From NCBI GenBank assembly GCA_023129535.1, contig JAGMBW010000045.1, positions 1 through 50,815 of the forward strand: DNA of 50,815 nt. The letters are read 5' to 3'. This document shows, one piece after another, positions 30,231 through 32,098 of this stretch; the stretch's first letter is position 1; the number at the start of each line of letters is the position of its first letter. The notes beneath the pieces are model-generated. The model was not told where the DNA came from. It worked only from the letters and a program-made list of their open reading frames with translations, and searched no databases. Both the position numbers and the translations under genes were made by a program. This DNA comes from Desulfobacterales bacterium (GTDB taxonomy: Bacteria; Desulfobacterota; Desulfobacteria; Desulfobacterales; C00003060).

Positions 30231-30887
30231 ATGATGCGCAAGCTAAATCCGCAATCCCTGGCCCAGACCTGCTCTCCGAGCGAAACGGTTTGTAGCGCTG
30301 GTGTCGCGCCAGGGCGGGCCGCAATCCGCAATCCGAAATGCTATGTGTGGGCCCTGGCTCTGGCTCTGTCGCTCTGCAGGCCCCTGTGGGCCGACATTTA
30401 CCACTATGTTGACAGCAACGGGATCATCCATTTCACAAATGTACCCACCGTTCCAGGATATGGTATCTATATACGCGAAGGCACCCTGGTACGTGCCGAT
30501 GAGATATCCAGCCGTTACGACGCCTATATCGCAGAAGCCGCCCGTAAACACGGGGTATCGTTTTCCCTGATCAAGGCAGTTATCAAGGCAGAGTCGGACT
30601 TCGATCCTTACGCTGTTTCCAGATCAGGCGCGCGTGGATTAATGCAAATTATGCCACAAACTGCAAAGGATCTGAGTATTGGCGATTCCTTTGACCCCAG
30701 AGAGAACATCCTTGGCGGCGCACGTTATCTTAAAGACCTGTTGATGCAGTTTCAAGGAAGCTTGCCTCTGGCCTTGGCCGCCTATAACGCAGGTCCCAGC
30801 AAGGTTCAGTCCCTCAGATGCGTGCCGCCCATTGAGGAAACCCAGAGCTTTGTACACAGAGTCATGCAATATCTTAACCTCTACTGA
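30231..30887 (+). CDS. Lytic transglycosylase (SLT) with DUF4124-like N-terminus
   Basis: Soluble-lytic-transglycosylase fold: ISRYDAYIAEAARKHGVSFS..KAVIKAESDFDP (catalytic Glu), SRSGARGLMQIMPQTA, GGARYLKDLL and LALAAYNAGPSKV. Ahead of it lies a short DUF4124-like stretch DIYHYVDSNGIIHFTNVP. The signal sequence WALALALSLCRPLWA precedes D-I-Y. The ATG at 30231 gives a basic n-region interrupted by a 63-bp element (21 codons, in frame). A GTG at 30345 would exclude the element but leave no positive charge before the hydrophobic core. Which start is used is uncertain. Confidence 0.85.
   Translation: MMRKLNPQSLAQTCSPSETVCSAGVAPGRAAIRNPKCYVWALALALSLCRPLWADIYHYVDSNGIIHFTNVPTVPGYGIYIREGTLVRADEISSRYDAYIAEAARKHGVSFSLIKAVIKAESDFDPYAVSRSGARGLMQIMPQTAKDLSIGDSFDPRENILGGARYLKDLLMQFQGSLPLALAAYNAGPSKVQSLRCVPPIEETQSFVHRVMQYLNLY
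30256..30318 (-). mobile_element. 63-bp element, copy 2, inserted in a CCGCAAT heptamer array
   Basis: On the minus strand: left arm at 30303-30318, 33-bp centre at 30270-30302, right arm at 30256-30269. Removing exactly these 63 bp joins CCGCAAT to CCGCAATCCGCAATCCG and restores an uninterrupted heptamer array. The insertion lies in the 5' part of the SLT reading frame and keeps it open. Confidence 0.75.
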
Positions 30888-30910
30888 ATCACACCGTGGT
30901 AACCATCATC

Positions 30911-31477
30911 ATGACCTCTGAAGACTTGCCTCCAAGGTTTTGGAGTTTTCCCAACCAGTTAACCCTTTACAGGATTGCAAGCATTCCTGTGCTGATCGTC
31001 CTGCTTATGTTTTCAGGCAAGGTGTGTGCCTTTCTGGCTGCTATTGTGTTTTCGGCTGCGTCTTTGACTGATCTGCTTGATGGCCTGTTTGCCCGGCGCC
31101 GAGGTCTTGAGTCAACCCTCGGCAAGTTCCTGGACCCGTTGGCCGACAAGCTACTCATCTCGGCGGCCTTGATCATGCTGATCCCCCACGGACGCGTAAC
31201 AGCCTGGATGGCCTTTGTCATTATTGGACGCGAAATCGCCGTAACAGGGCTGCGTGCTATCTTATCTGAAAAAGGTGTAGTGATGGGTGCCTCGGAACTG
31301 GGAAAGTACAAGATCGTCTTTCAGATAGCGGCTATCATCCCGCTTCTGATCCACTACACGTATTTCAATATCGACTTCCACACCGTAGGCAAGGTGCTCC
31401 TGTGGATAGCCCTTATATTGACAGTATGGTCAGGGGCAAGATATATGGTTAAATTCAGGGGTGTCATGAACGAATAA
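30911..31477 (+). CDS. pgsA: CDP-diacylglycerol-glycerol-3-phosphate 3-phosphatidyltransferase
   Basis: Makes phosphatidylglycerophosphate, the committed step to phosphatidylglycerol. Several membrane helices surround the CDP-alcohol phosphotransferase motif DLLDGLFARRRGLESTLGKF with LDPLADK following (DG..AR........G....D...D). The N-terminus FPNQLTLYRIASIPVLI is typical of PgsA. 188 residues from the ATG at 30911; a GTG at 30896 would add five. Confidence 0.93.
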   Translation: MTSEDLPPRFWSFPNQLTLYRIASIPVLIVLLMFSGKVCAFLAAIVFSAASLTDLLDGLFARRRGLESTLGKFLDPLADKLLISAALIMLIPHGRVTAWMAFVIIGREIAVTGLRAILSEKGVVMGASELGKYKIVFQIAAIIPLLIHYTYFNIDFHTVGKVLLWIALILTVWSGARYMVKFRGVMNE

Positions 31478-31740
31478 GGTGATGATATAGTCCTTAAGAA
31501 AAAGGGTTTGGTGTTACGGGCTCTATTATGAAATGAGAATGCTATCATCTCACTTGTGGCAGATGCTGGATGCTCGATCCTGGATAACAAACTGATTTTT
31601 AACATTTTATCGAGAATCCAGTATCCAGTATCAATAAGTTGACGCCTAAGAAGCTCCTTGCAAAGCAGAAAATTGCTGACCCCAAAAACATTATCTTGGA
31701 ATCTATAGCACAGGCTGTCCAGTCCGCCCCTACAAGAATT
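31478..31740. other. Non-coding spacer with inverted heptamer arrays
   Basis: No gene is seen. ATGCTGG-ATGCTCG-ATCCTGG (31563-31583) faces its inverse ending CCAGTATCCAGTAT (about 31612-31632), again an arrangement that can fold into a hairpin. Confidence 0.55.
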
Positions 31741-31745
31741 TTTTG

Positions 31746-31774
31746 TTGACAAAGAAACAGGAGATCGTTATGTA
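31746..31774 (+). promoter_or_regulatory. Putative sigma70 promoter of tRNA-Gly
   Basis: TTGACA (31746-31751), 17 bp, TATGTA (31769-31774), with the mature tRNA starting 17 bases later. Confidence 0.55.
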
Positions 31775-31790
31775 TACGGTATGATATCGG

Positions 31791-31865
31791 GCGGGAATAA
31801 CTCAGAGGTAGAGTGCAACCTTGCCAAGGTTGAAGTCGCGGGTTCAAATCCCGTTTCCCGCTCCA
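31791..31865 (+). tRNA. tRNA-Gly (anticodon GCC)
   Basis: Acceptor GCGGGAA pairs with TTCCCGC; anticodon loop TTGCCAA within stem ACCTT/AAGGT-type pairing; T arm CGGG-TTCAAAT-CCCG. Discriminator T and encoded CCA end at 31865. Confidence 0.95.
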
Positions 31866-31886
31866 GCCGGAACTTAGGGGCTTCGC

Positions 31887-32098
31887 CATAATTGGTCGAG
31901 TGCCCGCCCTGGCGCGACGTGCTTAAATTAATCTACTAAGCCCATAATCCAGGTCTGGGCCAGGGGTCAAGTGGTTGATTAGTCGAGTAGTTTAAGGGCC
32001 TTACGACTGGACAATAAAAAAGTTAATCGTTATCCGTTAATCGTTATTAGGGAAACAAATAACGAATAACCAATCAACTACTCGACTAAAGTCGTAGG
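31887..32098. repeat. Octamer and heptamer arrays between tRNA-Gly and tRNA-Cys
   Basis: A copy of the array found after tRNA-Glu (GGTCGAGT...GTCAAGTGGTTGATTAGTCG), here split by the 63-bp element. Within it lie the inverted heptamers TTAATCGTTATCCGTTAATC (32022-32048) and AATAACGAATAACC (about 32057-32071). Confidence 0.7.
31903..31965 (+). mobile_element. 63-bp element, copy 3, with empty counterpart after tRNA-Glu
   Basis: Left arm CCCGCCCTGGCGCGAC (31903-31918), 33-bp centre (31919-31951), right arm GGTCTGGGCCAGGG (31952-31965). The flanks GGTCGAGTG and GTCAAGTGGTTGATTAGTCG are contiguous at 14461-14490, so the element's borders are defined to within a base or so. No target duplication is evident. 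Confidence 0.8.

Follow-up and report, generated by a model that had tools for sequence, protein, structure and literature searches.

Copies of a 63-bp repeat in the window

The window, a stretch of 50,815 nt (contig JAGMBW010000045.1 of assembly GCA_023129535.1), originates from a sediment bacterium of the Desulfobacterales whose genome holds well over a hundred 63-bp copies of the element described here. Three complete copies, a fourth that is divided by one of them and a natural empty site were located in the window:

1365 to 1373, plus strand: CCCGCCCTG, a left-arm remnant from another host element, the split being after arm position 9 and the remainder lost here
1374 to 1425, plus strand: first part of the outer element (a fourth, older copy) from the nested parse, consisting of the left arm, a 34-bp centre and GG of the right arm
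1426 to 1488, plus strand: copy 1, 63 bp, arms exact, interrupting the outer element in its right arm behind GG
1489 to 1500, plus strand: remaining right arm of the outer element (TCTGGGCCAGGG), from the sequence
14449 to 14513, plus strand: natural empty site, where the repeat array known from copy 3 directly follows tRNA-Glu and is unfilled (junction 14470/14471)
30249 to 30255, no strand assigned: target heptamer CCGCAAT left of copy 2; the array resumes at 30319 to 30339
30256 to 30318, minus strand: copy 2, 63 bp, within the CCGCAAT heptamer array, arms exact
31791 to 31865: tRNA-Gly, flank of copy 3
31903 to 31965, plus strand: copy 3, 63 bp, in a repeat array between tRNA-Gly and tRNA-Cys, arms exact
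32138 to 32212: tRNA-Cys, flank of copy 3

A sequence-only reading of the window had described copies 1 to 3 as pairs of constant arms at a fixed distance. Each was found where it had placed it, with no mismatch in either arm and, by the arm borders first drawn, exactly 33 bp between them. The fourth copy (1374-1425 and 1489-1500), split by copy 1, had been missed. Excision of 1426-1488 gives back the arm-centre-GGTCTGGGCCAGGG of this outer element, and the layer that is reduced to the remnant at 1365-1373 is complete in sister loci (e.g., L008 and L018).

The same reading stated that deletion of copy 2 or copy 3 leaves an intact array. Without copy 2 the sequence CCGCAATCCGCAATCCGCAATCCGAAAT is indeed restored, and the array of copy 3 exists unfilled elsewhere in the window. 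Copy 3 itself lies between tRNA-Gly and tRNA-Cys, whereas its empty partner follows tRNA-Glu. The Rfam covariance models matched only tRNAs in the window, with no match at E up to 1 around copy 3.

The ORF at 30231-30887 is lytic-transglycosylase-like and includes copy 2 at its 5' end, where the 63 bp are in frame and free of stop codons. The real start of this ORF is probably downstream, near position 30339.

Arms, centre and length classes

The element consists of the arm CCYGCCCTGGCGC, a variable centre of about 36 bp and the arm GGTCTGGGCCAGGG, with a total length of 63 bp. The left arm was corrected to CCYGCCCTGGCGC, ending at GCGC, as the GAC that commonly follows it is not constant. TTC, TAC, TTT, TCA and ACA were found in its place, the right arm (GGTC) being unchanged. 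The element is non-coding and forms an imperfect hairpin with a 5' tail. Its inverted ends are imperfect and asymmetric, and share only CCCTGGCSC in inverted orientation.

The assembly to which the window belongs (G000; 2.9 Mb in 230 contigs, 98.5% complete) was counted with 102 copies. Exact matches to the left arm (GCCYGCCCTGGCGC) number 135 and those to the right arm (GGTCTGGGCCAGGG) 177, with none in the reversed controls. The two-arm pattern as originally drawn gave 50 exact matches genome-wide compared to 0 in the reversed control. Within the window, the left arm was matched four times at up to 3 mismatches, where 0.32 matches are expected by chance.

Random centre lengths, which the sequence-only reading had named as a finding that would refute it, were not encountered. 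Over the 664 kb sampled from the own genome, the centres measured 35-39 or 70-76 nt, with a single one at 47 nt. The element lengths fall between 62 and 66 bp or between 96 and 105 bp, i.e., 63 bp, or about 101 bp with a doubled centre. The long class comprises 27 copies over all loci (centres of 69-78 nt), some of which are clearly doubled (about 74 nt). Two doubled centres are joined via remains of arms, which suggests a nested insertion followed by a short deletion.

Long-class elements with related centres of about 74 nt were also seen to share the site type GGATTTTGYG/AATGAG (the slash marks the insertion point here and below) in different genomes (L175, L143, L105).

Insertion sites and nesting

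The own-genome loci contained 21 nested inserts in the first parse. All of them had the orientation of their host and were located at two fixed points of its arms, 13 after base 9 of the left arm and 8 at GG of the right arm (positions 51/52). Removal of the inserts from the inside out restored a normal host element. A larger survey yielded 36 nested sites in left arms and 30 in right arms. The self-target points can be written as CCYGCCCTG/GCGC and CCAGG/TCTGGG, or one base earlier, as for some right-arm inserts that follow the first G.

Apart from the arms, 173 distinct targets were compared. The base at position -1 was a G in 171 of them, C was rare just after the element and the next two bases were rich in T. 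The targets include the tandem repeats ATTTCGG, ATTGCGG, GTCGAGTG, TAAAGTG and GACAGGATT, a REP-type palindrome (CGTAGGGGCGG/GTTTATCCCGCCC) and another palindrome (CATTTCGAGCGAAGCG/AGAAATC). The idea that insertion is directed into repeat arrays was thus supported, and it has to be extended to REP-type palindromes and to the arms of the element itself.

A natural empty copy, taken as a junction of 24 bases with up to 2 mismatches in the sampled DNA, was found elsewhere for 108 of the 173 targets. When the left flank of one site was paired with the right flank of another as a control, this was the case for 21 of 859 (2.4%). Exact junctions were obtained for 31 sites, compared to 0, 0, 1 and 0 when one or two bases were removed or repeated. 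Insertion therefore neither duplicates nor removes target bases, whereby a 1-bp duplication of G is not distinguishable because the element ends in GGG. Together with the nested excisions, these empty sites bear out the earlier description of a very small mobile unit with borders set by its empty sites.

The element was also often seen at one and the same point of another dispersed family of palindromes, GACGCAGAGCGTC...TTACAACGCAGAGCATTGTAA (L155, L276, L023, L027, L136, L139).

Symmetric terminal repeats and a duplicated target are the rule in bacterial MITEs (ERIC/RU-1, Correia, NEMIS and others), which are non-autonomous, short and mostly intergenic. An ordinary MITE of a DDE insertion sequence would explain a short, non-coding unit with imperfect inverted ends. 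The element differs from MITEs in that its terminal repeats are not symmetric, only CCCTGGCSC being common to both ends, and in the missing target duplication. In addition, following the located arms over about half of the genome led to no parent with these ends. We consider this origin very unlikely.

Conservation of the arms and divergence of the centre

The sequence-only reading had assumed that the structure of the element is kept rather than its sequence, and had pointed to a CTAC motif and a 4-bp inner inverted repeat in each centre. Both are present in the three window copies. Over 230 distinct centres they occur at chance level, CTAC in 17% (14% after shuffling) and any 4-bp inverted repeat in 56% (53% after shuffling). 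No conserved fold was detected, as the z-score of the whole element was between -0.27 and -0.01 compared to shuffled centres, and no dominant pairing pattern was found in the centre. A conserved hairpin in the centre was rejected since its folding energies equal the shuffled ones.

The arms, on the other hand, are nearly perfect. Within the 664 kb, 62 copies had no arm mismatch, 9 had one and 3 had three to six (reversed control 0), figures that lean towards intact arms since the contigs were chosen for holding exact-arm copies. A search with the centres only, in which the arms were not used, led to 100 places, and at nearly all of these the two arms were intact or one of them was interrupted by a nested copy. 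When copies were compared with their closest independent counterpart in the same genome, the centres differed at a median of 6 of 33 bases and the arms at less than 1 of 26. This comparison admitted up to 1 mismatch per arm and copy, by which few copies were lost according to the mismatch counts of the 664 kb.

With intact arms, fixed centre lengths, diverged centres and no fold, conservation applies to the arm sequences and to the centre length, and not to the structure of the centre. The contrast between arms and centre also fits selection on the arms in place or a change of the centre during movement. Duplicated loci with common flanks showed few changes in centre or arms, a number too small to decide. 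Only 4 of 232 distinct centres were found at two or more unrelated sites. A plain copy-and-paste burst would have left more exact copies, which counts against the explanation favored below. Shuffling of centres by recombination between copies was tried as a further candidate and rejected, as a PHI-type test gave no signal and no chimeras were found.

Occurrence and turnover in related genomes

Among 291 sampled genomes of the class, the element is nearly confined to one genus of the Desulfobacterales. The copy number within this genus is patchy and ranges from 0 to 187, with at most 2 copies elsewhere. The genomes are metagenome assemblies, one per species, and are often broken at repeats of this kind.

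The site of copy 3 was compared in relatives that have both tRNA genes (L195-L202), and no arm was found between tRNA-Gly and tRNA-Cys. The gap amounts to 7-15 bp in five relatives and 104 bp in a sixth. A centre conserved at orthologous positions across species, named in the sequence-only reading as an argument against mobility, was thus not encountered at this locus.

Genome pairs with 98-99% identity differ by whole intergenic blocks composed of short tandem repeats and elements, for example L326 480-1310 versus L327, and L031 1800-2780 versus L112 (genomes about 98% identical). Since these very close genomes differ by whole repeat blocks and not by a lone 63-bp element, no single clean jump was caught there. 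Such blocks of repeats may be mobile in their own right. In a comparison at 96% identity, one element was kept unchanged in the aligned part. The sites turn over at a rate above that of about 2% sequence divergence. The element accounts for part of the unstable intergenic DNA in its genus.

These data bear on the possibility that the element is not currently mobile and that its arms are held by selection for a host function, such as a protein-binding site or a hairpin for RNA processing or termination, while the centre drifts. Nearly perfect arms next to diverged centres are consistent with this, and so are the few copies kept with little change at orthologous or duplicated places. Against it stand the empty copy-3 site in relatives, the differences between genomes of 98% identity, the empty counterparts for 108 targets and the range from 0 to 187 copies inside one genus. 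Selection in place was therefore judged to be an unlikely explanation.

Search for a mobilizing enzyme

The search for a mobilizer covered three families, namely Y1 transposases, reverse transcriptases and IS110. No transposase recurred among the genes neighboring the elements. An autonomous copy with the same ends was not found among the arm positions of the own genome that were followed in detail, which cover roughly half of its 230 contigs.

REP-type Y1 transposases had been suggested in the sequence-only reading. If the element were REPIN-like, a Y1 (HUH) transposase of the RAYT or IS200 type would move it as a single-stranded hairpin. In REPINs, a single GTAG-type REP forms both ends in inverted orientation, and these ends are associated with a RAYT gene (Bertels and Rainey, 2011; PMC3116915). 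The element resembles REPINs (PMC3116915) in its invariant ends of about 16 bp around a variable spacer, its 5'-tailed hairpin, its precise excision and insertion without target duplication and its mainly intergenic position, whereby pairing of the spacer itself is at chance. Y1 genes were present in 16 of 17 genomes of the genus, including all six copy-rich ones.

Unlike in REPINs, the ends are asymmetric, the GTAG tag is absent from the arms and self-nesting takes place at two fixed points of the arms. Of the Y1-bearing loci in the genus, 31 were read; arms bracketed none of these, and one had a single left arm. The RAYT of the window's genome is no more than 39% identical to those of the other genomes searched, and a 75% relative of its IS200 TnpA is found only in a genome without copies. 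No Y1 genes close to those of the window's genome were found in the other copy-rich genomes, so that nothing positive speaks for the suggestion. A replication-strand bias was not seen, as 36 of 71 copies lie on the G-rich strand with contig GC skew as proxy. A REPIN-like element is therefore a rather doubtful explanation. Elements derived from IS200/IS605 (PATE-like) also differ by their insertion 3' of a fixed 4-5 nt target, where only the G at -1 is fixed in the present element and the next positions are weak, and by an orientation bias towards the lagging-strand template, which these counts do not display.

The window's genome contains two RAYT-like Y1 genes, each adjoining its own REP-like palindromes, AAACCAGGTTTTT and GTAGGGGCAACC respectively (L152, L153).

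Small dispersed repeats (SDRs) of Nostoc and relatives reportedly have a length of 21-27 nt and a common fold backed by compensatory changes. They are also said to nest in themselves and to reside in heptamer tandem repeats. The element is similar in being very small, non-coding, present in many copies, located in heptamer arrays, self-nested and limited to one lineage. It is unlike SDRs in its length of 63 or about 101 bp, its constant arms and its drifting centre of fixed length, which has no conserved fold; compensatory changes were not found either, as GAC after the left arm varies without a change in GGTC. The SDR work (Elhai et al., 2008) is cited in PMC3116915.

Spread via an RNA copy and reverse transcription, as proposed for the cyanobacterial repeats, would be in line with self-nesting and residence in heptamer arrays. 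However, reverse transcriptase (PF00078) is absent in the window's genome, which is 98.5% complete and has 102 copies, and in G238 with 46 copies. The centre without a conserved fold and the lack of an orientation preference relative to genes also speak against this route, which appears highly improbable.

IS110 is absent from the copy-rich genomes G238 and G152. As the presence patterns do not fit, Y1, reverse transcriptase and IS110 were each rejected as a common mobilizer. Plasmid carriage was searched for without a match. An integron attC site was ruled out by sequence, since GTTRRRY boxes are absent.

Proposed mode of movement and comparison with known repeats

The element is probably a non-autonomous mobile element of 63 or about 101 bp that is moved in trans by a putative enzyme recognizing its two constant arms. 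As the sequences show, copies enter precisely and immediately after a G, without duplication or loss of target bases. Short tandem repeats, REP-type palindromes and the two fixed points of the own arms serve as targets, the latter giving rise to nests of the same orientation. Constraint is limited to the arms and the length of the centre, whose sequence drifts. A recombinase may bind at the arms, with the centre as a spacer that has to be of the right length. Resident copies would stay young if they often move and are often lost, so that decayed arms would be rare and the centre lineages could be old.

A single-strand (HUH-like) recombinase is a tentative first guess for the putative enzyme, because the target is not duplicated, the element forms an imperfect, 5'-tailed hairpin and hairpins are among its targets. 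The even distribution over both strands (36/71) is counter to a lagging-strand HUH mechanism, which predicts a strand bias. With a smaller chance, the mover could be an undescribed kind of recombination system that reads two short arms at a set distance, requires no target identity other than a single G and favors DNA that is folded or repetitive, the arms of the element included. A stronger form of this reading is also conceivable, in which movement alters the centre and renews the arms, and almost every copy receives its own centre.

CGTC-tagged REPs are small palindromic repeats with stems of 8-9 bp and loops of 4-5 bp for which no dedicated transposase was found (PMC3733652). This stem and loop layout does not apply to the element. 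REPINs and CGTC REPs are close to it in kind, and the cyanobacterial SDRs closest in habit. Of the defining features tested for a REPIN, an SDR, a MITE or an IS200/IS605-derived element, the element does not have the full set in any case.

The element ranks among the smallest mobile DNA units that are well delimited. The evidence is unusually clean, as most targets have a natural empty counterpart, the borders are exact to the base and the element targets itself at two fixed points. Ever since SDRs and CGTC REPs were described, it has been asked how such small repeats can move when no transposase is obvious. This question can be tested with this element because the ends, the preferred targets and copy-rich as well as copy-free sister species are now named. 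One copy was additionally found between the genes of a contig in a viral collection (L274 1227-1286), and this contig is a possible vehicle between hosts.
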